Source: an uncultured Clostridia bacterium (lineage in GTDB: Bacteria; Bacillota; Clostridia; Christensenellales; Aristaeellaceae). From it: DNA of 52,468 nt. A model generated the notes under the pieces. That model did no database searches. It worked only from the letters and a program-made list of their open reading frames with translations, and was not told the origin of the DNA. Of the stretch, positions 5,101 through 52,275 are shown in pieces. Location: contig CAMFCQ010000009.1 of assembly GCA_945948915.1 (NCBI GenBank), positions 1-52,468 of the forward strand, written 5' to 3'. Every line of letters starts with the position of its first letter. The first letter of the stretch is position 1. Made by a program: the position numbers and the translations under genes.

Positions 5101-5925
5101 TCAGTCAAGGAATTCCTCGCGCAGCTGCACGCCGAATTCCTTGGCAATCGCGCGCAGCTCGTCGTCCTTGATCGTCTGGCGGATGCCCTGTCCGCAGGAC
5201 ATGGCCAGCACGTAGATCTGCGCGGACTTCTCGATCGTGTGCATCAGGCCGAACGTGGTGTCAAAGTCCGGGCCGGAGACGAACAGGCCGTGATGCGCCC
5301 AGATTGCCGCCTCGTATTTCTTCATCTTCTCGCAGGTCGCCAGCGCGATGTCCGCGCCGCCCGGCACCATCCACGGCACCACGCCCACGCCGCCCGGGAA
5401 CACGACCGGGCACTCTGTCGCGCTCTTCCACAGCACGCGGGAGAATTCGCGGTCCGTCAGCTCGAGCACGTACGTCAGCGCAATGACGTTCGCCGGATGC
5501 GCGTGGTAGATCACGCGGCAGGCGCCGTTCGTCGCGGCAACGCGAACGGAGTGGTTCATGAAGTGGCTCGGGAATTCGCTGGTCGGGCGGCCGCCGTTCT
5601 TCAGGCCCCACACGATGCGGTAGCTGTCGCCCGCCTCGTTGATCTCCACGATGCACAGGCTGTCCTCGGGATCGAGGATCACGTTGCGGAAGAACTTGCC
5701 CGAGCCGGTGGAGATGAAGTACTCGCCGGCCAGGTTCGCGCCGGTCACGCCCATGTTCACCCACGGGCGCGGCTGCGCGTCAAAGAACGGCCGCATCTGT
5801 TCGACCTCTTCCTTCGTCAGGCGGTAGGTCACGTTGCCGCCGTTGCGCTCGTGCCAGCCCTGATGCCAGCCGTCGTCCGCCATGCGGATATAGCGCTTCA
5901 TCACCGAAATGTCAAGCATTCCCAT
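5101..5925 (-). CDS. rhaD: Rhamnulose-1-phosphate aldolase
   Basis: Zinc-dependent class II aldolase that splits L-rhamnulose 1-phosphate into DHAP and L-lactaldehyde in the cytoplasm. The 274-residue length is that of the E. coli enzyme. The catalytic Glu117 (TSEFPSH) and zinc ligands His141, His143 (HAHPANV) and His212 (AHHGLF) occur at the same residue numbers as in E. coli RhaD. The start at 5925 has GGAGG eight bases upstream; an ATG two codons in is less well placed. It follows rhaA by 26 bases in the leftward rha operon. Confidence 0.96.
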   Translation of the reverse strand: MGMLDISVMKRYIRMADDGWHQGWHERNGGNVTYRLTKEEVEQMRPFFDAQPRPWVNMGVTGANLAGEYFISTGSGKFFRNVILDPEDSLCIVEINEAGDSYRIVWGLKNGGRPTSEFPSHFMNHSVRVAATNGACRVIYHAHPANVIALTYVLELTDREFSRVLWKSATECPVVFPGGVGVVPWMVPGGADIALATCEKMKKYEAAIWAHHGLFVSGPDFDTTFGLMHTIEKSAQIYVLAMSCGQGIRQTIKDDELRAIAKEFGVQLREEFLD

Positions 5926-13499: not shown

Positions 13500-13693
13500 A
13501 TACTCTTTTCTGATAGAGACGAGCAATAAACGCGAAGCGAAGAAGGGAGTCTGAGGGATGAAATCCCTCAGGCAGGTTTGGGCGGCAGCCCAACGTATCC
13601 CCACGTGGCGAAGCCATTCGGTCAAAGCAGTCAGGGAGCGAAGCGTTACCTGACGGGGCTTAGCACTTGGCTGTTTCTATTTGAAAACAGTAT
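13500..13693 (+). repeat. Modular hairpin repeat with terminal inverted repeats (copy 1)
   Basis: This 194-bp element has imperfect 21-base terminal inverted repeats beginning ATACT (13500-13520 and 13673-13693). Inside are the module CGCGAAGCGAAGAAGGG, a hairpin GAGGGATGAAATCCCTC, a hairpin GGGCGGCAGCCC and a hairpin around GTCAGG...CCTGAC. The same order occurs at 24250-24446. It fills the gap between the GH112 gene and the importer genes. No coding capacity is seen, so it resembles a MITE or a BIME-like intergenic element. Confidence 0.75.
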
Positions 13694-16446: not shown

Positions 16447-17394
16447 TTAAAGCAATCCGTCTTCGCCAAGCTTCTTGGCGACCTTGTCAGAAGCCAGCAC
16501 CAGGATCAATCCGACCAGCGACTGGAACAGACCCACCGCCGTTGCGCGGGAGAAGTTGCCGCCCGCCAGACCCTTCTCATAGATGTAGATGGCCAGCTGA
16601 TACTGGAAGTCCTTGACCTGCACGTTGCCAAAGGCGTCCAGGCGCTCGAAGTTAGAGCCCATCACGCGGCCCAGGTTCATGATCAGCAGCGTGACCATCG
16701 TGCCGCGGATGCACGGCAGGGTGACGTTCCAGATCTTGCGCCAGCGGCCCGCGCCGTCGATGGTCGCCGCCTCGTAGAGTTCCGCGTCGATGCCGGTAAT
16801 CGCGGCGAGGTAGATGATGGAGCCCCAGCCCATGTTCTGCCAGACGCCGATGAGCAGGTAGGACACCGCCCAGTGCCATTTCTCAGTCAGGAACGGAATG
16901 CCCTTGTCGATGATGCCCAGGTTCATCAGCGCGACATTGACCAGGCCCGTCTCCGGCTTAAAGAGCGTGAGCATGACGGAGGCGATGATCGGCCAGGAGA
17001 GGAAATGCGGCAGATACAGGATGGTCTGGGAGACCTTCTTGTAGCGATCAAAGCGCAGCTCGTTGAGCAGCAGCGCCAGGATGATGGGCACCGGGAAGCC
17101 GACAATCAGGTCGAGGAAGTTGAAGATCAGCGAGTTGCGCAGCGCGGTGTGGAAGCTCTTGTCCTTGAAGACCTTTTCAAACGTCTCCAGGCCGACCCAC
17201 GGGCTGCCGGAAAAGCCCTTGGCAGGCTTGTAGTTCATGAACGCGATGCGCATGCCCGGATACGCCGCATACTTGAAGATGATGACGAAGGCAATCGGAA
17301 TCAGCAGCAGCGCATAGAGCTGCCAGTTGTTCCTGAGATACACTCCCATCTTTCCCGCGCGAAGATCGCGCCGCTCGACGCTCTTCTGAGCCAT
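16447..17394 (-). CDS. Sugar ABC importer permease (LplB/YteP type)
   Basis: A 315-residue permease, the first gene of the importer operon. It starts with a basic cytoplasmic stretch, then LYALLLIPIAFVIIFKYA as the first membrane segment, and carries the EAA loop YEAATIDGAGRWRKIWNVTLP. The upstream ORF extension is rejected because GGAGG lies seven bases before the ATG at 17394. It diverges from the araC-family gene across a 256-base regulatory region, so that regulator probably controls it. Confidence 0.92.
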   Translation of the reverse strand: MAQKSVERRDLRAGKMGVYLRNNWQLYALLLIPIAFVIIFKYAAYPGMRIAFMNYKPAKGFSGSPWVGLETFEKVFKDKSFHTALRNSLIFNFLDLIVGFPVPIILALLLNELRFDRYKKVSQTILYLPHFLSWPIIASVMLTLFKPETGLVNVALMNLGIIDKGIPFLTEKWHWAVSYLLIGVWQNMGWGSIIYLAAITGIDAELYEAATIDGAGRWRKIWNVTLPCIRGTMVTLLIMNLGRVMGSNFERLDAFGNVQVKDFQYQLAIYIYEKGLAGGNFSRATAVGLFQSLVGLILVLASDKVAKKLGEDGLL

Positions 17395-17650: not shown

Positions 17651-18589
17651 ATGGCGCGCCCATTCAGGAACATCATCGAGTACCGCATCTACGAGCTGGA
17701 GCCCGACAAGCCGTTTTTGTGCCTGTCCGGCGAGGAGTGGCGCATCTCCGACGTGCTCAGCGACCGCCTCCACTTTCACAACTGCCTGGAAATCGGCTAC
17801 TGCTTCTCCGACAGCGGCTTCCTCGGGTTTGAAAACGACGTCACCGTCCCCTTTGCTGCGCGGGACATCTTTCTGATTCCGCGCTTTGTGCCGCATACCA
17901 CCTGCTCCGCACCCGGCTGCCGCAGCCGCTGGAACTATCTGTTCGTCGATCCGGATGTGCTCAGCCATCACTTCGGCGTGCGCCAGGGCGAGCAGCAGAG
18001 CTTGAGCGTGCTGCTGGGCAGCTATCTGCGCATCACCGCCGCCAGCCATCCCCGGCTGTACTTCATCTGCAAATGCCTGCTCGAGGAGGCGACCTCGCGC
18101 GGGGACGGCGATCAGTCGCTCTTCAATCTCTACTTTCTTACCCTCTATGCCGAGCTTCGCAGCCAGCTCAGCAGCCAGAGCCCGCAGCCGCTGACCAACA
18201 GCCGCGCCTTCATCCTCCGGCCTGCGCTGGAATACATCAACGACCACTATGTGGAGCCCTGCAGCGTGGACAAGCTGGCCAGCCTGTGTCACCTGAGCCA
18301 GACCCATTTCCGGCGTCTTTTTCTCTCCATCATGGGCACGACGCCCCTGCAGTACGTCATCCAGATCCGCATCCGTCAGGCCTGCATCCTGCTCAACACC
18401 ACCAGCGAGCCCATCACCTCCATCGCGCAGGCCGTGGGCATCACCTCCATCTCCAGCTTCAACCGGAACTTCCAGCAGGTCATGAACGTCACCCCGCAGC
18501 AGTACCGCCAGTCCGCCAAGCCCATCCGCGCCAGGCAGAAGTCCTGCATCCTGCCCTACAAGGGCTGGCTGGTACCCGAAAACCTGTGA
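17651..18589 (+). CDS. AraC-family transcriptional regulator
   Basis: A 312-residue DNA-binding regulator with an N-terminal cupin-like sensor domain (HFHNCLEIGYC near residue 40, typical of the arabinose-binding fold) and a C-terminal pair of helix-turn-helix motifs (residues ~200-300: VDKLASLCHLSQTHFRRLF and ITSIAQAVGITSISSFNRNF). It is divergent from the sugar importer operon and 14 bases upstream of the GH2 gene, so it probably senses an imported or intracellular sugar and activates both. AGGGGG lies about eight bases before the ATG. Confidence 0.92.
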   Translation: MARPFRNIIEYRIYELEPDKPFLCLSGEEWRISDVLSDRLHFHNCLEIGYCFSDSGFLGFENDVTVPFAARDIFLIPRFVPHTTCSAPGCRSRWNYLFVDPDVLSHHFGVRQGEQQSLSVLLGSYLRITAASHPRLYFICKCLLEEATSRGDGDQSLFNLYFLTLYAELRSQLSSQSPQPLTNSRAFILRPALEYINDHYVEPCSVDKLASLCHLSQTHFRRLFLSIMGTTPLQYVIQIRIRQACILLNTTSEPITSIAQAVGITSISSFNRNFQQVMNVTPQQYRQSAKPIRARQKSCILPYKGWLVPENL

Positions 18590-18603
18590 TGGAGGAGCCT
18601 GTC

Positions 18604-21375
18604 ATGAAAGCATTTGACCTGTCCGGCCCGTGGCGTTGCGAGACAAGCGAGGGCTGCGCGGCCGCGCATCTGCCCGGCACGCTCGATACCAACGGAATCG
18701 GCCATGCCGACCTCACCGCCGCGCCGTGGCACCCGGACGAAAACTGCAACGACGTGCTGGCCTCTGCCGGCGTCATCGCCACGCGCCTGACGCGCCGGCA
18801 CACCTATGAGGGTGCCGCCGTCTTCACCCGGGCGCTGTCGTTTGCGCCGCCCGCAGGCAAGCGCGTCTTTCTCTTCTGCGAGCGCACGCGCCGCCTGTCC
18901 CTGCGCGTCAACGGGCGGGACGTGCCGCATTTCCTGCCCGCGACGCTCTCCGCGCCGAATGTCTTTGAGATCACGGAGCTGCTGACCGGCCGCGATGAGC
19001 TGGCCCTCACCTGCGACAACCGCTATCCTGGCTGGCCGCACGACGATATCCTCTTCTCCAGCGCCGCGACGGACGAGACGCAGACCAACTGGAACGGCGT
19101 GCTCGGCGAATTCTGCCTGCGCGTGGAGGAGCCGGTGTTCATCCATGCGGTGCGGGTCTATCCGCGCGAAGACGTGCTGGATGTCTGTGTGGATATCTCC
19201 GCCGACCGCGCGTGGCAGGCCTCAGTCTGCGTGACCAGCGATGCGCTGGCCGCGCCTGAGACGGTGCAGGCACAGGGCGAGGCGGGCTTCTCCTGCGTCC
19301 GTCTGAGCGGCCTTCCGCTTATTGCCCTCGTGCGCCGCTGGGATGAGGGCGAAGGCCATCTGTATGCGCTGACCGCCTCGCTGGGAGATTCACAGAAGAC
19401 CGTTTCCTTCGGCGTGCGCACCTTTCGCGCACAGGACGGACGGCTGACACTCAACGGCCGCGCCATTTTCCTGCGCGGCGAAACCAACTGCGCCGTCTTC
19501 CCGGAGACCGGCCATCCGCCAATGGATGTGCCCGCCTGGCGGCAGATTCTGGCCGTCTACCAAAGCTACGGCGTGAACTGTGTGCGCTTCCACAGCCATT
19601 GCCCGCCGGAGGCCGCGTTCATCGCCGCAGACGAGACCGGCATGCTGATTCAGGCCGAGCTCTCGCACTGGAATCCCCGGCATGCCTTCTCCTCCCAGGA
19701 GAGCCGGGCGTATTACCGTGCGGAGCTTGAGGCCGTGCTGCGCGCATACGCCAATCACCCCTCGCTCGTCCTGCTGTCCCTGGGCAACGAGCTGCACATG
19801 GACGAGGACGGGCAGGCCTATGCTGACGCGCTGCTCGATTTCGCGCGCAGCCTCGATTCCACCCGGCTGTATACCGCCGGCTCCAACAATCACTACGGCG
19901 CCAAGGGCCCCAATCCCGCGGACGATTTCTATACCGCCTGCTGCTGCCGCGAGCACGCGCTGCGCGCGACCAGCTCGCCCATGGTCGGCTGGCTCAACGA
20001 GCGCTTGCCCGACCTGCGCACGGACTATGCCCCGGCCATGCAGGCTGTCCGGGCGTGCAGCGATCAGCCGGTGCTTTCCTTTGAGGTGGGCCAGTACGAG
20101 GTTCTGCCGGACTTTGACGAGCTGCAGGCCTTTCAGGGCGTGACGCGTCCGGACAATCTGTCGCTGATCCTGCGCCGGGTGGAGGCAGCGGGCCTGCTTC
20201 CCCGCTGGAAGGCCCGTGTCGCGGCGACAGGCGAGCTGGCCCTGCGTTGCTACCGCGCGGAGGTCGAGGCTGCGCTGCGCACCGAATCGCTCTCCGGCAT
20301 CTTCCTGCTGGGGCTTCAGGATTTCCCCGGGCAGGGCACGGCGCTGGTGGGCATGCTCAATAGCCACCTCTCGCCCAAGCCCTACGCCTTTGCGCAGCCG
20401 GAGCGCTTTGCCCGGTTCTTCACCGCCGTCCTGCCGCTGGTGCTGCTGCCCCGCCTGACCTACACCGCGGAGGAAACGCTTGAAGCCGACGTGCGCATCG
20501 CCAACTACGGCAGGCAGGCGCTTGCGGGTATTCCCACATGGACGCTTTCGGGCGAGGGGATTTGCCTGCGCGGCGCGCTTGCGCCGGCCCATGCCGCCTG
20601 CGGTGCCGTATCGGACCTGGGCAGAATCCGCGTGCCGCTTTGCGGCATCAAAACCGGCATGATGCCGGCTTCATCCCCGACGAAACCATGCAGCCCCTGT
20701 CGCTTTGCGACCGAGGCCGGAGCCATGCGGAAGGATTCACATCATAAAGCCGCGAAGCTGACGCTCACCGTCAGCCTCTGCGGCCATGAGAACAGCTATG
20801 ATCTCTGGGTCTACCCGGACACGCCCGCTGTATGCCCTGAAGATGTATACGAATGCCGGACGCTCGACACCCGCGCCCTCGCCGTGCTCCGTCAGGGCGG
20901 CAGGGTCTTCCTCGCGCCGGATTCCACGAAGGACGCGCTGCCCTATTCCATCCGCGGACAGTTCTCCACGGACTTCTGGTCCGTCGGCACGTTCCCCGCG
21001 CAGGAGGGCGGCATGGGCCAGCTCATCGACACGGCGCATCCTATCTTTGACGGCTTCCCCACGGACGCGCACACCGACTTTCAGTGGTGGCCAATGGCCT
21101 CCCGGCGCGCCGTGATGCTGCCCAAGGCGCTGCAAAGCATCCGGCCCATCGTCACCCTGATGGACAGCTATGCCTATCTGCGCCCGATGGCGCAGCTGTT
21201 TGAGTGCCGCTGCGGCGGGGGCAGGCTGCTGTTCTCCTCGCTGGGCCTGCACCAGATCACGCAGTATCCCGAGGCGCGGGCGCTGCTCGATTCCATCTAC
21301 CGCTATCTGGGCTCGGACGCCTTTGCGCCCGGGCAGGAGGCACCGGTTGAAGAGATACGCAAGCTTCTGGCGTGA
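18604..21375 (+). CDS. Glycoside hydrolase family 2 protein with an in-frame repeat insertion
   Basis: A 923-residue GH2-type glycosidase with no signal peptide, so cytoplasmic. An N-terminal jelly-roll sugar-binding domain (residues ~1-170) and an Ig-like domain precede the TIM barrel. The acid/base is Glu396 in LSLGNELHMD, and the likely nucleophile is Glu494 in LSFEVGQYEV. The start at 18604 has GGAGG with an 8-base spacer and follows the araC-type gene closely. At residues ~684-716 the sequence is interrupted by about 33 residues (TGMMPASSPTKPC...) encoded by a 98-bp repeat also found at 28566 and 52133. The flanking parts (IRVPLCG before, KLTLTVSLCG and NSYDLWVYP after) read as one continuous beta domain. 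The sugar specificity is not known; location suggests RG-I or galactan fragments. Confidence 0.87.
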   Translation: MKAFDLSGPWRCETSEGCAAAHLPGTLDTNGIGHADLTAAPWHPDENCNDVLASAGVIATRLTRRHTYEGAAVFTRALSFAPPAGKRVFLFCERTRRLSLRVNGRDVPHFLPATLSAPNVFEITELLTGRDELALTCDNRYPGWPHDDILFSSAATDETQTNWNGVLGEFCLRVEEPVFIHAVRVYPREDVLDVCVDISADRAWQASVCVTSDALAAPETVQAQGEAGFSCVRLSGLPLIALVRRWDEGEGHLYALTASLGDSQKTVSFGVRTFRAQDGRLTLNGRAIFLRGETNCAVFPETGHPPMDVPAWRQILAVYQSYGVNCVRFHSHCPPEAAFIAADETGMLIQAELSHWNPRHAFSSQESRAYYRAELEAVLRAYANHPSLVLLSLGNELHMDEDGQAYADALLDFARSLDSTRLYTAGSNNHYGAKGPNPADDFYTACCCREHALRATSSPMVGWLNERLPDLRTDYAPAMQAVRACSDQPVLSFEVGQYEVLPDFDELQAFQGVTRPDNLSLILRRVEAAGLLPRWKARVAATGELALRCYRAEVEAALRTESLSGIFLLGLQDFPGQGTALVGMLNSHLSPKPYAFAQPERFARFFTAVLPLVLLPRLTYTAEETLEADVRIANYGRQALAGIPTWTLSGEGICLRGALAPAHAACGAVSDLGRIRVPLCGIKTGMMPASSPTKPCSPCRFATEAGAMRKDSHHKAAKLTLTVSLCGHENSYDLWVYPDTPAVCPEDVYECRTLDTRALAVLRQGGRVFLAPDSTKDALPYSIRGQFSTDFWSVGTFPAQEGGMGQLIDTAHPIFDGFPTDAHTDFQWWPMASRRAVMLPKALQSIRPIVTLMDSYAYLRPMAQLFECRCGGGRLLFSSLGLHQITQYPEARALLDSIYRYLGSDAFAPGQEAPVEEIRKLLA
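20653..20750 (+). repeat. 98-bp palindrome-headed element inside the GH2 gene (copy A)
   Basis: It begins ACCGGCATGATGCCGG, a near-perfect palindrome, and ends TAAAGC. A gap-free hand alignment to copy B (28566-28663) gives about 75 identities in 98 bases. It is read in the frame of the host gene without a stop, giving TGMMPASSPTKPC followed by ATEAGAM. The host reading frame is intact on both sides. Confidence 0.85.
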
Positions 21376-21401: not shown

Positions 21402-21455
21402 AAAAACCGTTTCAATTGCAGGCTGCTGCGCATCCTGCTCTGAAACGGTTTTTCT
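21402..21455 (+). terminator. Terminator of the GH2 gene, member of a repeat family
   Basis: AAAAACCGTTTCA (21402-21414) pairs with TGAAACGGTTTTT (21441-21453). A second inner stem forms from GCAGG and CCTGC. The interior is nearly identical to the reverse complement of 39216-39262, so this terminator is one copy of a repeated unit. Confidence 0.85.
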
Positions 21456-21470
21456 TATACAATAGGGGGA

Positions 21471-21545
21471 TGCGTTAGGGCTGCCGCCCTAAAACCTGCC
21501 TGAGGGATTTCATCCCTCAGACTCCCTTTTTCGCTGCGCGCGATG
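21471..21545 (-). repeat. Modular hairpin repeat (copy, reverse orientation)
   Basis: Contains, on the - strand, the order GAAG...GGGAGTCTGAGGGATGAAATCCCTCAGGC then TTTTAGGGCGGCAGCCCTAACGC. It has no terminal inverted repeats, so it is a partial copy. It lies between the convergent GH2 and D-cysteine desulfhydrase-like genes. Confidence 0.7.
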
Positions 21546-24249: not shown

Positions 24250-24446
24250 ATACTATTCTCAAATAGAAACGAGCTATAAGCGCGAAGCGAAGAAGGGGTC
24301 TGGGGACTGGTCCCCAGGCTAGGGGTTTGGGGGATGAAATCCCCCAACGTCTCCATATCGCGAAGCGATCAAAGAAAAGCAGTCAGGGAGCGAAGCGTTA
24401 CCTGACGGCCGGTTATTGCATGGCCGATTTTATTTGAGAGTAGTAT
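24250..24446 (+). repeat. Modular hairpin repeat with terminal inverted repeats (copy 2)
   Basis: A 197-bp element whose ends, ATACTATTCTCAAATAGAAAC and ATTTTATTTGAGAGTAGTAT, are inverted repeats. The interior holds CGCGAAGCGAAGAAGGGG, hairpins GGGGACTGGTCCCC and GGGGGATGAAATCCCCC, and GTCAGGGAGCGAAGCGTTACCTGAC. Order and ends match 13500-13693; the interior also matches 30060-30205 in reverse. No coding capacity. Confidence 0.78.
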
Positions 24447-24496
24447 TAAAATCCGAACGTTTTCCGAAATGCTGCCGAAAATAATCCCGAAATCTG

Positions 24497-25779: not shown

Positions 25780-26916
25780 ATGAGCGTCAATATCCGCATC
25801 GACCACGCCCGCAAGTGCTACGGCAGCAGCGTCATCATCGAGGACCTCTCCGTCCATATCCGCGAGGGCGAGTTCTTCACGCTGCTCGGCCCGTCCGGCT
25901 GCGGCAAGACCACCCTGCTGCGCATGATCGCCGGCTTCAACTCCATCGAGGGCGGCGATTTCTACTTCAACGACACCCGCATCAACGACATCGATCCCAG
26001 CAAGCGCCGCATCGGCATGGTCTTCCAGAACTACGCCATCTTCCCGCACCTGTCCGTCGCGGACAACGTCATGTTCGGCCTGAAGAACCAGCCCAGCAGG
26101 CTGCCCAAAGCGGAGATGAAGGCACAGGCCGAAAAGTTCATGCAGCTCATGCACATCGACGAGTACGCCGACCGCATGCCCGAGCGCCTGTCCGGCGGCC
26201 AGCAGCAGCGCGTCGCTCTGGCCCGCGCGCTGGTCATCCAGCCGGACGTGCTGCTGATGGACGAGCCTCTGTCCAACCTGGACGCGAAGCTGCGCGTGGA
26301 GATGCGCGAGACCATTCGCGAGATTCAGCGCAGCGTGGGCATCACCACCGTGTACGTCACGCACGACCAGGAGGAGGCCATGGCGGTTTCCGACCGCATC
26401 GCCGTCATGAACCTGGGCAAGATCCAGCAGATCGGCGCGCCCAAGGCGATCTACCAGCGCCCGGCGAACCTGTTCGTCGCCAGCTTCATCGGCCGCACCA
26501 ACCTGCTCCCGGGCGAGCTGCGCATCGCAGGCGGCAAGGCCGAGCTCACCGTCGGCGGCAGCTGCACCATGACCCTTAACAACCTGCTTGAAAGCGAGAT
26601 GCGCGACCAGAAGGTCGTCGTCTCCGTGCGTCCGGAGGAGTTCGTCATCGCCAGGGACGGCGAGGGCGTCGCCGCGACGGTCACGGGCAGCACGTTCCTG
26701 GGCCTGAACATGCACTACTTCCTGACGCTGGACACCGGCGAGCACGTGCAGGTCATCCAGGAGGCCGAGCTGGATTCCGTCCTGCCCGAGGGCAGCCGCG
26801 TGGTGCTGGGCATGAAGAAGCATAAGCTCAACATCTTCTGCGAGGACGGCAGCCGGAACCTGGTTCGCGGCGTGATCAACGACGCCGCCCCGGCGCAGCA
26901 GGAGGGCACCGTATGA
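25780..26916 (+). CDS. ABC importer ATP-binding protein (FbpC/PotA type)
   Basis: A 378-residue ATPase energising the importer encoded around it. Walker A is GPSGCGKTT (37-45), the signature LSGGQQQR begins at 137, Walker B is LLMDEP (158-163), and a TOBE-type regulatory domain occupies the last ~120 residues. The ATG at 25780 follows AAGGAG by 11 bases; an upstream TTG is in frame but lacks a ribosome site. The stop overlaps the permease start by four bases (ATGA). Confidence 0.93.
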   Translation: MSVNIRIDHARKCYGSSVIIEDLSVHIREGEFFTLLGPSGCGKTTLLRMIAGFNSIEGGDFYFNDTRINDIDPSKRRIGMVFQNYAIFPHLSVADNVMFGLKNQPSRLPKAEMKAQAEKFMQLMHIDEYADRMPERLSGGQQQRVALARALVIQPDVLLMDEPLSNLDAKLRVEMRETIREIQRSVGITTVYVTHDQEEAMAVSDRIAVMNLGKIQQIGAPKAIYQRPANLFVASFIGRTNLLPGELRIAGGKAELTVGGSCTMTLNNLLESEMRDQKVVVSVRPEEFVIARDGEGVAATVTGSTFLGLNMHYFLTLDTGEHVQVIQEAELDSVLPEGSRVVLGMKKHKLNIFCEDGSRNLVRGVINDAAPAQQEGTV

Positions 26917-28565
26917 AGCAGAAGCGTCCCATGGACGTCTGGCAGATCATCTCGTTTGTGATCCTCGGCCTGTACGCCCTGTTCCTCATCCTGCCGATGT
27001 TCCAGCTGCTGCGCAGCTCGGTCGTCGGCGCAGACGGGCAGTTCAGCCTGGAGTATTTCGTGGAGTTCTTCACCAAGGAATACTACTACGGCACGCTGCT
27101 CAACAGCTTCAAGGTCAGCGTGGCGGTCACGGCCGTCTCGCTCGTGCTGGGCATCCTCTTCGCGTATTTCTACAACCTGTTTGAGATGAAGGGCAAGGCC
27201 CTCCTGCATACGCTGGCCATCCTGTGCAGCATGTCCCCGCCCTTCATCGGCGCGTACAGCTGGATTCAGATGTTCGGCCGCGGCGGCATGTTCACCAAGC
27301 TGTTCAGCTCGCTGTTTGGCATCCGGTTCCCGGACATCTACGGCTTCACCGGCATCGTCATCGTCATCACCTGCCAGCTCTTCCCGCTGGTGTTCCTCTA
27401 CATCGCCGGCGCGCTGCGCAACATCGATAATTCGCTCATCGAGGCGGCGTCCGGCCTGGGCTGCTCAAGCCTGAAGCGCTTCTTCGTGGTCATCCTGCCG
27501 CTGTGCATGCCCACGATCCTCGCCGCCGCGCTGCTGGTGTTCATGCGCGCGTTCGCGGACTTCGCCACGCCGCTGCTCATCGGCAAGGGCTTCCAGACCT
27601 TCCCGGTGCTCATCTACAACCGCTACGTCGGCGAGACCTCGATGAACCACAACTTCGCCGCGGCGATCTCCGTCATCGGCATCGTGGTCACGGCAGCCAT
27701 CTTCCTGGTGCAGAAGTTCGCGACCACCCGCTTCAATTTCACCATGAACGCGCTGCACTCCATCGAGACGCACAAGCCCCGGCGCCTGACCAGCGTGCTC
27801 ATCCATTTCTATTGCTACGCCATCGTCGGCATCGCCATGCTGCCGCAGGTATTTGTCGCCTGGCAGTCCTTCCGCAGGTGCAAAGGCGGCGTGTTCCAGC
27901 CCGGCTACAGCCTGGACAGCTACCGCGACGCCTTCGGCAAGATCATGAAGCGCAGCCTGCCCAACACCTTCACCATCGGCCTGGCCGCGCTCGCGCTGGT
28001 CATCCTGCTGGCGATCCTCATCGCCTACCTGGTCGTGCGCCGCAGCAACGCGGTCAACAACGTGATCGACACGCTCTCCATGGTGCCCTACATCATCCCG
28101 GGCGCGGTCGTCGGCATTGCGCTGGTCATCACGTTCAACGACGGTCCGCTGGTCCTCACCGGCACCGCGGCGATCATGGTCATCGCGCTGATCATCCGCC
28201 GCCTGCCCTACACCATCCGCTCCTCCGTCGCGATTCTCCAGCAGATCCCCATGTCGATTGAGGAAGCCGCCATCTCCCTGGGCTGCTCCAAGCTCAAGGC
28301 GTTCTTCACCGTCACCGTGCCAATGATGACCAACGGCATCATGTCCGGCGCGATCATCAGCTGGATCACGATCATCACGGAGCTGTCCACCGCCATCATC
28401 CTCTACAGCGTGCGCACGGAGACCCTGACGCTGGCCATCTACACCAACGTGGTGCAGGGCAACGACGGCGTCGCCTCCGCGATTGCCACCATCCTGCTGG
28501 CGGTCACCACCGCGTCGCTGCTGCTGTTCATGAAGTTCTCCAAGACCAAGGAGATTTCGTTCTAA
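26913..28565 (+). CDS. ABC importer fused permease (FbpB type, two domains)
   Basis: A 550-residue membrane protein with two tandem permease halves of about six segments each, as in FbpB-type iron and phosphonate importers. EAA-like loops are visible in both halves: EAASGLGCSSLKRFFVVILP and EAAISLGCSKLKAFFTVTVP. Translation is coupled to the ATPase gene through the ATGA overlap. The stop codon is followed immediately by repeat copy B. Substrate not assigned. Confidence 0.92.
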   Translation: MKQKRPMDVWQIISFVILGLYALFLILPMFQLLRSSVVGADGQFSLEYFVEFFTKEYYYGTLLNSFKVSVAVTAVSLVLGILFAYFYNLFEMKGKALLHTLAILCSMSPPFIGAYSWIQMFGRGGMFTKLFSSLFGIRFPDIYGFTGIVIVITCQLFPLVFLYIAGALRNIDNSLIEAASGLGCSSLKRFFVVILPLCMPTILAAALLVFMRAFADFATPLLIGKGFQTFPVLIYNRYVGETSMNHNFAAAISVIGIVVTAAIFLVQKFATTRFNFTMNALHSIETHKPRRLTSVLIHFYCYAIVGIAMLPQVFVAWQSFRRCKGGVFQPGYSLDSYRDAFGKIMKRSLPNTFTIGLAALALVILLAILIAYLVVRRSNAVNNVIDTLSMVPYIIPGAVVGIALVITFNDGPLVLTGTAAIMVIALIIRRLPYTIRSSVAILQQIPMSIEEAAISLGCSKLKAFFTVTVPMMTNGIMSGAIISWITIITELSTAIILYSVRTETLTLAIYTNVVQGNDGVASAIATILLAVTTASLLLFMKFSKTKEISF

Positions 28566-28663
28566 ACCGGCATGATGCCGGCTGCATCACCGACGAAGTC
28601 ATGTAAGTCCAGTTGCTTTGTGCCCGAGGCCGAAGCTTTGCAGATGAACTTACAGAGTAAAGC
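28566..28663 (+). repeat. 98-bp palindrome-headed element (copy B)
   Basis: Begins ACCGGCATGATGCCGG directly after the permease stop codon and ends TAAAGC. About 75 of 98 bases match copy A without gaps. The same frame as in copy A is open here too (TGMMPAASPTKSC...), although it is not attached to a gene. It occupies most of the gap before the EIIC-like gene. Confidence 0.83.
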
Positions 28664-28680: not shown

Positions 28681-29775
28681 ATGGATAAAATCAAAGCCTT
28701 TCTCGCCCGCAAGGGCATCGTCTGCTCCTTCAAGCAGTACGGCGTGGACGCGCTCGGTGCCATGGCGCAGGGCCTGTTCTGCACGCTGCTGGTGGGCACC
28801 ATCCTCAACACCCTCGGCCAGCAGCTGCATATCGGCTTTCTGACCGCGCCCATCGTCTCCGTCGGCACGGTCTCCTACACCGTCGGCGGCCTCGCCTCCG
28901 CGATGGTCGGCCCGGGCATCGCCGTGGCCATCGGCAGCGCGCTGCGCTGCCCGCCGCTGGTGCTCTACTCGCTCATCCCCGTGGGCTTTGCGGCCAACGC
29001 CATGGGCGGCGCAGGCGGCCCGCTGGCGGTCTACGCCGTCACCATCATTGCCGCGGAGCTGGGCAAGCTCGTCTCCAAGGAGACCCGTATCGACATCCTC
29101 GTCACGCCCTGTGTCACCGTCATTGCCGGCATCGCCGTCGCGCAGCTGATCGCCGCGCCCATTGGCACCGCCGCGCGCGCCGTGGGTCTGGCCATCATGT
29201 GGGCCACGGAGCTGCAGCCCTTCTTCATGGGCATGCTCGTCTCCGCGCTCATCGGCATCGCGCTCACCCTGCCCATCTCCTCCGCCGCAATCTGCGCGGC
29301 CTTCGGCCTCACCGGCCTGGCCGGCGGCGCCGCGGTGGCGGGCTGCTGCGCGCAGATGGTCGGCTTTGCCGTGATGAGCTTCAGGGAGAACCGATGGGGC
29401 GGCCTTGTGGCGCAGGGCGTGGGTACCAGCATGCTGCAGATGCCCAACATCCTCAAAAACCCCCGCATCTGGATCCCGCCGACGCTGGCCTCGATGATCA
29501 CCGGCCCGCTGGCCACCTGCGTCTTCCAGCTCCAGATGAACGGCTCGCCCGTCTCCTCCGGCATGGGCACCTGCGGCTTCGTCGGCCAGATCGGCGTGTA
29601 CACCGGCTGGGTCAGCGACATCGCCGCCGGCACGAAGGCCGCCATCACGCCGATGGACTGGATCGGCCTTATCCTCATCTGCTTCATCCTGCCCGCCGTG
29701 CTCAGCACGCTTTTCTGCCGCATCCTGGAAAAGCGCGGCTGGATCCGCGAGGGTGACATGAAGCTCGATCTGTAA
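28681..29775 (+). CDS. EIIC-like membrane protein (PTS_EIIC_2 / PfoR-type family)
   Basis: A 364-residue, very hydrophobic protein with about ten membrane segments, matching the family of stand-alone PTS EIIC-like proteins related to Clostridium PfoR. Typical parts are GMGTCGFVGQIGVY and NPRIWIPPTLAS. It has no EIIA or EIIB domain and no such gene is near, so a classical PTS role is doubtful; transport or sensing is possible. No good ribosome site precedes the ATG at 28681, perhaps because repeat copy B displaced the native leader. A strong terminator follows. Confidence 0.78.
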   Translation: MDKIKAFLARKGIVCSFKQYGVDALGAMAQGLFCTLLVGTILNTLGQQLHIGFLTAPIVSVGTVSYTVGGLASAMVGPGIAVAIGSALRCPPLVLYSLIPVGFAANAMGGAGGPLAVYAVTIIAAELGKLVSKETRIDILVTPCVTVIAGIAVAQLIAAPIGTAARAVGLAIMWATELQPFFMGMLVSALIGIALTLPISSAAICAAFGLTGLAGGAAVAGCCAQMVGFAVMSFRENRWGGLVAQGVGTSMLQMPNILKNPRIWIPPTLASMITGPLATCVFQLQMNGSPVSSGMGTCGFVGQIGVYTGWVSDIAAGTKAAITPMDWIGLILICFILPAVLSTLFCRILEKRGWIREGDMKLDL

Positions 29776-29979: not shown

Positions 29980-30059
29980 GAAGCAGCAAAATGCTCCCAT
30001 CCGTCTGGCGGGTAGGAGCAATCTATTGGGTTTATGCTGTTGTTCAGTCAAATCAAGCT

Positions 30060-30205
30060 TTCAGAAAACCGCCGCCAGGTAACGCTTCGCTCCCTGACTG
30101 CTTTTCTTCTGACCGCTTCGCGATGGAGTACGTTGGGGGATTTCATCCCCCAAACCCCTGGCCTGGGGACCAGTCCCCAGACCCCTTCTTCGCTTCGCGC
30201 GGTTA
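30060..30205 (-). repeat. Modular hairpin repeat (copy, reverse orientation)
   Basis: Read on the - strand it follows the interior of 24250-24446 almost base for base: CGCGAAGCGAAGAAGGGG, GGGGACTGGTCCCC, GGGGGATGAAATCCCCC, then GTCAGGGAGCGAAGCGTTACCTG. The terminal inverted repeats are absent. It abuts the end of the PfkB kinase gene. Confidence 0.75.
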
Positions 30206-33463: not shown

Positions 33464-33532
33464 AACGTTGGGCTGCCGCCCAAACCCGCCTGAGGGACAG
33501 TGTCCCTCAGACTCCCCTCTCCGCTTCGCGGC
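33464..33532 (-). repeat. Modular hairpin repeat (copy, reverse)
   Basis: On the - strand: CGCGAAGCGG...GAGGGGAGTCT, the hairpin GAGGGACACTGTCCCTC, then GGGCGGCAGCCCAACGTTC. The hairpin loop differs from other copies but the stem is kept. It directly follows the MATE stop codon. Confidence 0.68.
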
Positions 33533-33559
33533 GGCTTCAAGCCAGTGAATCTCAATCCC

Positions 33560-33590
33560 GGCGCAGGAAATATCCTGCGCCCGATTTTTT
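33560..33590 (+). terminator. Terminator of the MATE gene
   Basis: Stem GGCGCAGGA / TCCTGCGCC with loop AATA, then CGATTTTTT. It lies between two outward-facing modular repeats. Confidence 0.78.
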
Positions 33591-33609
33591 ACCCATCTTC
33601 TTCAAACCA

Positions 33610-33681
33610 GCGCGAAGCGAAGAAGGGGTTCGGGGACGATGTCCCCGAGCAGGTTTTAGGGCGGCAGCCCTAACGTCCCCC
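33610..33681 (+). repeat. Modular hairpin repeat (copy, forward)
   Basis: CGCGAAGCGAAGAAGGGGTT, hairpin CGGGGACGATGTCCCCG, then TTTTAGGGCGGCAGCCCTAACG. It pairs in opposite orientation with the copy at 33464-33532 around the MATE terminator. Confidence 0.7.
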
Positions 33682-39125: not shown

Positions 39126-39205
39126 CCGCCGCGAAGCGAAGAAGGGAGTCTGAGGGATGAAATCCCTCAGGCAGGGGCATGGGGCAAGGCCCCCATCGTT
39201 CCCCA
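39126..39205 (+). repeat. Modular hairpin repeat (copy, forward)
   Basis: CGCGAAGCGAAGAAGGGAG, hairpin TGAGGGATGAAATCCCTCA, then hairpin GGGGCAAGGCCCC. It is the left flank of a composite structure with the palindrome at 39216-39376 and a reverse copy at 39385-39460. Confidence 0.7.
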
Positions 39206-39215
39206 TAAAGCAAAG

Positions 39216-39376
39216 AAAAACGTAGTTTCAGAGCAGGCTGCGCAGCAGCCTACGATTGAAACGGGGCTGATCCACAAAGCTAAGGTTTATTCAAGTTCAT
39301 TCTGAATTCCTGCTTTGTGAATCAGCACCGTCTCAATCGCAGAAGGCTATGCCTTCTGCTCTGAGACTACGTTTTT
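39216..39376. repeat. 161-bp nested palindrome made of two head-to-head terminator-like units
   Basis: AAAAACGTAGTTTCAGAGCA (39216-39235) pairs with 39357-39376; 39253-39280 pairs with 39312-39339 with three mismatches; each arm holds its own small hairpin (39236-39250 and 39340-39358). Each arm resembles the terminator unit at 21402-21455. In the convergent gap after the ABC exporter it can stop transcription from both sides. Confidence 0.75.
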
Positions 39377-39384
39377 TTCATAGG

Positions 39385-39460
39385 ACGGGATACGTTGGGC
39401 TGCCGCCCAAACCTGCTTGGGGATTTCATCCCCAAACCCCTTCTTCGCTTCGCGCATAGC
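39385..39460 (-). repeat. Modular hairpin repeat (copy, reverse)
   Basis: On the - strand: GCGCGAAGCGAAGAAGGGGT, hairpin GGGGATGAAATCCCC, then GGGCGGCAGCCCAACGTATCCC. With 39126-39205 it forms an outer inverted repeat around the palindrome. Confidence 0.7.
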
Positions 39461-52132: not shown

Positions 52133-52228
52133 ACCGGCATGATGCCGGCCCCACTTCCGACAAAGCGCTGTGCATCACGAGGCCACTCAGCCCGAGGCCG
52201 GTGCTTGACAGAAGGAACTCCATCGCAG
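52133..52228 (+). repeat. Palindrome-headed element (copy C1)
   Basis: Begins ACCGGCATGATGCCGG, keeps CCGAC near position 30 and CCCGAGGCCGGTGCTT in the middle, 96 bases long. The frame used in the GH2 copy is open here ([13 protein letters not shown]...). It lies in the 5' leader of the MetN-like gene. Confidence 0.72.
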
Positions 52229-52275
52229 ACCGGCATGATGCCGGCCCCACCTCCGACAAATCTTACAGCAAAAGA
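52229..52275 (+). repeat. Palindrome-headed element, internally deleted (copy C2)
   Basis: The first ~32 bases repeat the element head (ACCGGCATGATGCCGG, CCGACAAA) and are joined to an end-like CTTACAGCAAAAG. It follows C1 directly, so the pair looks like a tandem copy that lost its middle. Confidence 0.65.

Follow-up and report, generated by a model that had tools for sequence, protein, structure and literature searches.

A 95-bp repeat that lies in a glycoside hydrolase gene, between genes and directly after stop codons in an uncultured Clostridia bacterium (Aristaeellaceae) is interpreted here as a short, non-autonomous mobile DNA element, which occurs mainly in one genus of gut Clostridia, is partly structured and inserts 3' of YAA or YAAA, stop codons included, and which would be moved in trans by an enzyme of the HUH type. 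We give this reading a probability of roughly 0.7. The repeat forms a family, its presence or absence changes the length of four sites by exact multiples of 95 bp, it has a preferred target, it is nearly absent from genes, and its copies carry no coding constraint.

The repeat family and its distribution

The window, that is, the whole stretch of DNA that was analysed, is contig CAMFCQ010000009.1 of assembly GCA_945948915.1 (52,468 nt). On its plus strand ACCGGCATGATGCCGG starts at positions 20653, 28566, 52133 and 52229, and the four copies reported in the initial annotation are all present there. A search with the 15-base core, in which up to two mismatches were allowed, gave 11 matches in the window (the four copy sites on both strands and three others), against 0.52 expected and a maximum of 3 in 100 shuffles.

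Copy A (20653..20747, plus strand) is a full unit of 95 bp located inside a GH2-family gene. Copy B (28566..28660, plus strand), also a full unit, directly follows the stop codon TAA of an ABC-type permease gene (26913..28565, plus strand; gene call, PF00528), and a PTS EIIC gene (28681..29775, plus strand; gene call, PF13303) begins 20 bases past it. Copy C (52133..52228, plus strand), which has 96 bp, is located between a LysR gene on the minus strand and the next plus-strand gene, and the truncated copy D (52229..52271, plus strand) follows it head to tail; in the relative G011 the site of these two copies holds 43 other bases. Copies A and B are 77% identical across 98 bases, which agrees with the match of about 75 of 98 bases noted earlier. 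The repeat described initially as a 98-bp element is real, but its unit is 95 bp, and the longer figure takes in three flanking bases: the length is exactly 95 bp in 140 of 172 distinct full copies, variants of 94 and 96 bp exist, and head-to-tail arrays have a period of 95 bp, as in C30:15386-15765, which consists of four units, two of them identical.

With the DNA of copy A as query, the genome of this bacterium yielded 43 matches at E ≤ 10. Twenty-three of its own copies, which are themselves among the matches counted, were used to build a covariance model, and this returned 93 at E ≤ 1 and 69 at E < 1e-3. When the model was run over 60 genomes, with stricter filters and no more than 70 candidates per genome scored, so that the counts are lower bounds, 17 genomes had matches at E ≤ 0.01: at least 16 of 29 in the genus (this genome included), at least one of seven in other genera of the family, and, outside the family, none of 24. 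Among named genomes a pattern scan found 74 stretches, all of them in metagenome-assembled genomes of Clostridia or Clostridiales or in Candidatus Ventricola intestinavium, and in IMG/VR a copy is present on one contig, where it likewise stands directly after a stop codon. Collections of plasmid and phage records, queried with one copy, gave no match at E ≤ 1e-3. In Rfam 15 there was no match for the window at the gathering score and none at E ≤ 1 for loci L002, L009 and L010, and a known RNA family was therefore rejected as an identity for the repeat. Among the titles listed by searches of open-access papers for this kind of repeat, none describes the element. The repeat is apparently an undescribed mobile element that is mostly restricted to one genus.

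Insertion sites and stop codons

The two bases 5' of the element are AA in 130 of the 172 full copies and TA in 19. Gene context was determined for 136 copies, each the first of its array, from this genome and its relatives, using an iteratively trained codon model of this genome; the copies of relatives were gathered largely by an intact-head pattern or by best score and therefore lean towards young ones. Ninety-eight copies are intergenic, 28 stand exactly at the stop codon of an upstream gene on the same strand, nine are read into by an upstream gene whose frame stops inside the element or just after it, and one, in the GH2 gene, is inside a gene. For 26 of the 28 copies at stop codons a downstream gene was called, and in 22 of these it is on the same strand; several copies end immediately before a ribosome-binding site. 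The flanking genes vary from site to site. Judging from their C-terminal sequences, we take the genes that end at copies in this genome to include those for triosephosphate isomerase, DnaK, PNPase, TyrS and RNase J. The reading frames of tpiA and dnaK end at the same residue in those close relatives compared that lack the element there.

In 44 background loci (817 kb) YAA occurs at 311 stop codons, at 5737 intergenic sites and at 16873 sites in genes, so genes hold 73.6% of the YAA sites, yet only one copy in 136. Of the copies at YAA, 13 of 55 (24%) are at stop codons, compared with 5.1% of the stop-plus-intergenic YAA sites. Moreover, 15 of the 28 copies at stop codons split the codon (TA-A or TG-A), and the first A of the element restores it; the TA-A configuration was seen 13 times at stops and four times elsewhere. 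The YAA target rule does not predict these 15 copies, and they hint at a targeting rule beyond the YAA motif. One possible, though rather unlikely, explanation is a novel type of non-autonomous element with stop codons as its homing site: it would insert at or inside the stop and restore it, its 95-base spacer would harm neither gene, and it would be moved by machinery outside the Y1, Y2 and IS110 enzymes of this genome.

The reading of the repeat as a mobile element that targets YAA is informed further by a comparison of occupied and empty sites, for which 63 arrays of this genome (67 copies) were set against 955,516 bases of G011, whose genome is about 3.1 Mb. Both flanks could be aligned in 21 rows, which represent 20 distinct sites, L068 and L077 being the members of a single tandem pair, with a mean flank identity of 87.9% (about 95% at the tpiA locus). 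At 19 of the 20 sites there is no clear copy in G011, and one site, L236, is filled in both genomes; at L270 G011 has a marginal match in antisense orientation (E 0.04). The difference is exactly 95 or 190 bp at four sites, namely the tpiA stop, L067, L068 with L077 (190 bp) and L272. At the tpiA stop the junction reads TAA^GAAGGAG in this genome and TAA^GAGGGAG in G011. At the remaining alignable sites the spacer sequence has been replaced rather than cleanly interrupted by an insertion, so that gain and loss look alike there. The same holds for the tandem pair, since the similarity of L068 to L077 is, by eye, only roughly 75% and both are nevertheless absent from G011, which makes gain indistinguishable from precise loss. 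In the reverse direction, as the comparison covered only part of this genome, no more than one of 17 arrays of G011 could be aligned, and this was again L236. Over 47 tpiA and dnaK loci the model gave clear copies in the two loci of this genome only; weak matches upstream of tpiA (G010, E 2.6e-6; G007, E 1.9e-4; G028, E 0.02) may represent an older shared copy, and G028 has another weak match just past the tpiA stop (E 0.016).

Structure, tails and possible mobilization

Helix 1 forms the left end of the element (CCGGC-ATGAT-GCCGG; 28567..28581, plus strand, in copy B) and has the same letters in copies A, C and D; being nearly invariant, it proves little. A second hairpin near the right end is probable. 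Its left arm in copy B is TGTAAGTCC (28602..28610, plus strand), and its right arm is GAACTTACA (28646..28654, plus strand; consensus GGAyTTACA), which is followed by the tail GAGTAA. Helix 2 pairs columns 37-45 with columns 82-90 of the alignment, and 12 cells are changed on both sides, a number reached in 2 of 500 shuffles, while the covariation score of the whole structure was reached in 1 of 500. Two of five measures do no better than the shuffles (43 of 500 for pairs changed at both positions, 136 of 500 for additional pair types). In 70 non-redundant copies, corrected mutual information is highest, among the pairs examined, for pair 42-84 of helix 2, pair 10-18, which lies outside both helices, is nearly as strong, and no helix-2 pair besides 42-84 is among the 40 strongest couplings. 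RNAalifold predicted helix 1 only, on 25 as well as on 70 copies, and single copies are not unusually stable (folding z of -0.37, -1.79 and -1.47 for A, B and C). No terminal inverted repeats were seen in the alignment by eye, where the ends are ACCGG and GAGTAA or TAACAA.

The partial covariation of helix 2, the 28 copies at stop codons with a same-strand gene next in 22 of 26 cases, and the copies that end right at a ribosome-binding site would all suit an intercistronic cis-regulatory or mRNA-stabilising RNA, i.e. a structured spacer kept for, e.g., translation coupling or 3'-end protection. We consider this quite unlikely. Such a spacer is hard to reconcile with the 19 of 20 alignable sites at which G011 has no clear copy, with neighbours that differ at each site, with the missing Rfam match, or with the orientation of intergenic copies away from stops for which both neighbours were called, where 36 run with and 28 against their co-directional neighbours and 32 lie between genes on opposite strands.

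If the repeat is instead a mobile element, as we prefer to read it, it would be defined by the near-invariant left-end hairpin (ACCGGC-ATGAT-GCCGG), the probable right hairpin and a tail with TAA or CAA as its last bases. Insertion would occur immediately 3' of a short, tail-like target (YAA or YAAA), each event adding 95 bp with no clear target duplication, and insertion behind the tail of a resident copy would generate head-to-tail arrays with their 95-bp period. TAA stop codons could serve as targets at which the upstream protein is left intact, and, these targets being harmless, many copies would come to separate a stop from the gene that follows; insertions in genes would almost always be lost. 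Transposition rather than loss would then account for the presence/absence differences, and the mover may have been an HUH-type (single-strand) transposase acting in trans, which is now absent or was not assembled.

A single-strand mechanism of the HUH type fits the element, and among the systems compared the element appears to work most like the IS200/IS605 family. Members of that family typically have no inverted repeats and make no target duplication, and in the element, too, there are no terminal inverted repeats and no clear target duplication. According to PMC6006769, the transposases of IS200/IS605 elements recognize hairpins close to either end; on the left the element is flanked by a tetranucleotide target, to which the last bases on the right correspond in function. 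The element may share the hairpins near its ends, of which helix 1 is clear and helix 2 is supported in part, and probably also the insertion without duplication beside a short fixed target that its tail matches: the differences of exactly 95 or 190 bp and the tails of the subfamilies favour this, and the 15 copies within stop codons break the YAA rule. It differs in that its left hairpin is at the very end, which leaves no room for an internal guide, in that its target is YAA and not a tetranucleotide, in its head-to-tail arrays, and in a host genome without a Y1 hit. No guide sequence pairing with the cleavage site was evident by eye.

The search for an enzyme covered three families, Y1 (PF01797), Y2 (PF04986) and IS110 (PF02371), none of which gave a hit in this draft genome, which is 88.7% complete; these three were rejected as mobilisers for this genome. 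Within the genus, Y1 occurs in 15 of 29 genomes, Y2 in three and IS110 in seven. Y1 is present in 8 of 13 genomes of the genus without the element and absent from 8 of 13 with at least 14 copies, and therefore it does not track the element; all of these genomes are drafts, which makes the absence of an enzyme provisional. Matches to the left and right halves of the element were also paired as a search for an autonomous partner, and by eye no obvious element with a gene enclosed by the two halves was found in loci of mostly up to about 8 kb.

The hairpin, the intergenic and genus-restricted occurrence, the high copy number and the arrays also bring to mind an element of the REP type, with a REP-associated tyrosine transposase (RAYT, TnpA-REP) as its mover. 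In PMC6006769 REPs are intergenic, palindromic repeats of many copies, isolated or clustered, with a GT[AG]G foot, and the element shares all of these features of REPs and BIMEs except the foot. Other palindromes accompany a RAYT-like gene in the same genus, but the protein is found in three of 29 genomes (G003, G009 and G020) and not in this one, and the palindromes beside its gene are, by reading, of the GTAG type, unlike the 95-bp element, whose foot is mostly YAAA or TAA and not GTAG or GTGG and whose unit is longer. This origin is therefore very unlikely.

The tails provide a further argument. Among singletons whose tail is GAG plus three bases (n=50) the upstream triplet is TAA in 23; among those with TAA plus three bases (n=39), CAA precedes 15 and AAA 12. 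In 44 of 50 T/C cases the upstream and tail letters agree (TAA with TAA 24, CAA with CAA 20, crossed 6). This agreement, which subfamily tails can also explain, could be expected of a DDE-type MITE that duplicates a YAA target of 3 bp, as could a net gain of 95 bp, i.e. 92+3, and the changed tail of L067 is compatible with such a duplication. On the other hand, the tail follows the subfamily when the target differs: CAA is kept after GAA (L068/L077), and TAA is kept after CTA or GTA, which speaks against target duplication. Considering also that terminal inverted repeats are missing, we regard a DDE-type MITE as highly unlikely. Sites with TAA on both sides are uninformative on duplication. 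In more general terms, the element resembles MITEs, BOX, ERIC and RUP in being a short, non-autonomous intergenic repeat of many copies, and it differs from them by having no terminal inverted repeats or clear target duplication and by sitting on stop codons. BOX, ERIC and RUP are named in PMC10969869.

Copy A in the GH2 gene and coding capacity

The GH2-family gene that carries copy A (18604..21375, plus strand; gene call) belongs to a longer open reading frame, 18073-21375, with a PF02836 match at E 1.6e-9, and copy A reads in frame there as TGMMPASSPTKPCSPCRFATEAGAMRKDSHH(K), about residues 684-715 of the protein. Matches to the query ORF exist in 15 of the 29 genomes, and nine loci among these were inspected. 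Copy A is absent from all nine homologues, which are continuous through the insertion point in the alignment; in two of them (L192 and L193) the wider match contains stop codons. Compared with its nearest homologues, L187 and L188, which are 66-67% identical to it over the aligned length, the protein of the window is longer by 31 residues (93 bp) at the insert, as counted on the alignment. An in-frame addition of about 33 residues had been proposed for this site. The in-frame insertion stands, because the homologues lack the corresponding stretch, and its size is corrected to about 31 residues. As copy A has 95 bp and no internal indels and the net gain is 93 bp, a small compensating indel presumably accompanied the insertion. 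The copy would have survived because this net change in length is divisible by three, and it resembles a rare accident that happened to stay in frame more than a protein-coding element.

A clean insertion of 95 bp, which is not a multiple of three, shifts the frame, and this bears on the claim, made when the repeat was first noticed, that it is a Rickettsia-like palindromic element. With Rickettsia palindromic elements it shares a length of roughly 100-150 bp, a palindromic part and one copy that is in frame in a protein gene. Nearly half of the copies of the Rickettsia elements are located in ORFs, and each encodes a conserved peptide (PMC10969869); here it is one of 136, with nine more that are read into, and no coding constraint. 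The single open frame with the peptide T-G-M-M-P-A-x-x-P-T, read from the sequence, is indeed common to all four copies of the window, but family-wide no more than 69 of the 172 full copies are free of stops in this frame (frame 1). Among the 140 copies of 95 bp, 60 have TGA at codon 12, and 59 are stop-free in frame 1 compared with 67 +/- 4 after column shuffling, i.e. there is no excess. In 99 nearest-neighbour pairs frame 1 has a pN/pS of 0.77, which falls within the 0.71-0.83 spanned by the five remaining frames, and its third positions vary slightly more (permutation p 0.10). It is thus extremely unlikely that the repeat spreads inside ORFs and is retained through translation in one frame, for which the in-frame copy that nine GH2 homologues lack, the open frames of the window copies and the third positions could be cited: at the level of the family this is rejected by the near absence from genes, the missing constraint on frame 1 and a unit of 95 bp with variants of 94 and 96.

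Copy A is therefore a cautionary case, since one copy in frame is no proof that a repeat codes for protein. What makes the repeat worth keeping in view is its unusual attraction to stop codons, by the use of which its insertion rule appears to avoid damage. Identifying the mobilising enzyme would reveal how so small a DNA element can reach about 70 intergenic copies, among them those at conserved genes of operons, e.g. tpiA and dnaK.

Other palindromic repeats and a RAYT-like gene

The spacers of the window hold at least one additional family of intergenic palindromic repeats (GCGCGAAGCGAAGAAGGG... and GGGCGGCAGCCC...) besides the 95-bp element. These further palindromes are located at 13531-13661, 21407-21540, 24279-24449, 30031-30200, 33465-33675 and 39126-39455, and complementarity of their arms between spacers reaches 99%.

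GTAG-type palindromes adjoin a RAYT-like (Y1) gene in G003 (L218:1303-1893) and at the equivalent loci of G009 (L228) and G020 (L219). The gene itself contains one such palindrome in frame, which reads CRGGALLLP in L218 and L228; the palindrome DNA is also present in L219, but there it is followed by a TAG stop.

Shortened and solitary copies

Short variants of the 95-bp element, in which the left 41 bases are kept and end with TAA, are found in L128, L175 and L176, where they are followed by a 17-base segment like TACTGTTCTGCRTTAAA and then by a full copy. Elsewhere in that MAG, further copies of the element also have a similar segment on their 5' side. On an 8.6 kb IMG/VR contig, a single copy (L425:4584-4677) has a stop codon immediately 5' and is flanked by two predicted genes.

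Presence and absence among relatives

The tandem copies L068 and L077 (source genome G000, C3:24773-24962) are clearly unlike each other, and both are absent, exactly to the base, from the relative G011; this difference reflects either two insertions or precise loss. Upstream of tpiA, diverged copies occupy a similar position in three species (L283:1331-1419 in G007, L286:1229-1318 in G028 and L288:1337-1428 in G010), and these perhaps represent a single old insertion that is shared.
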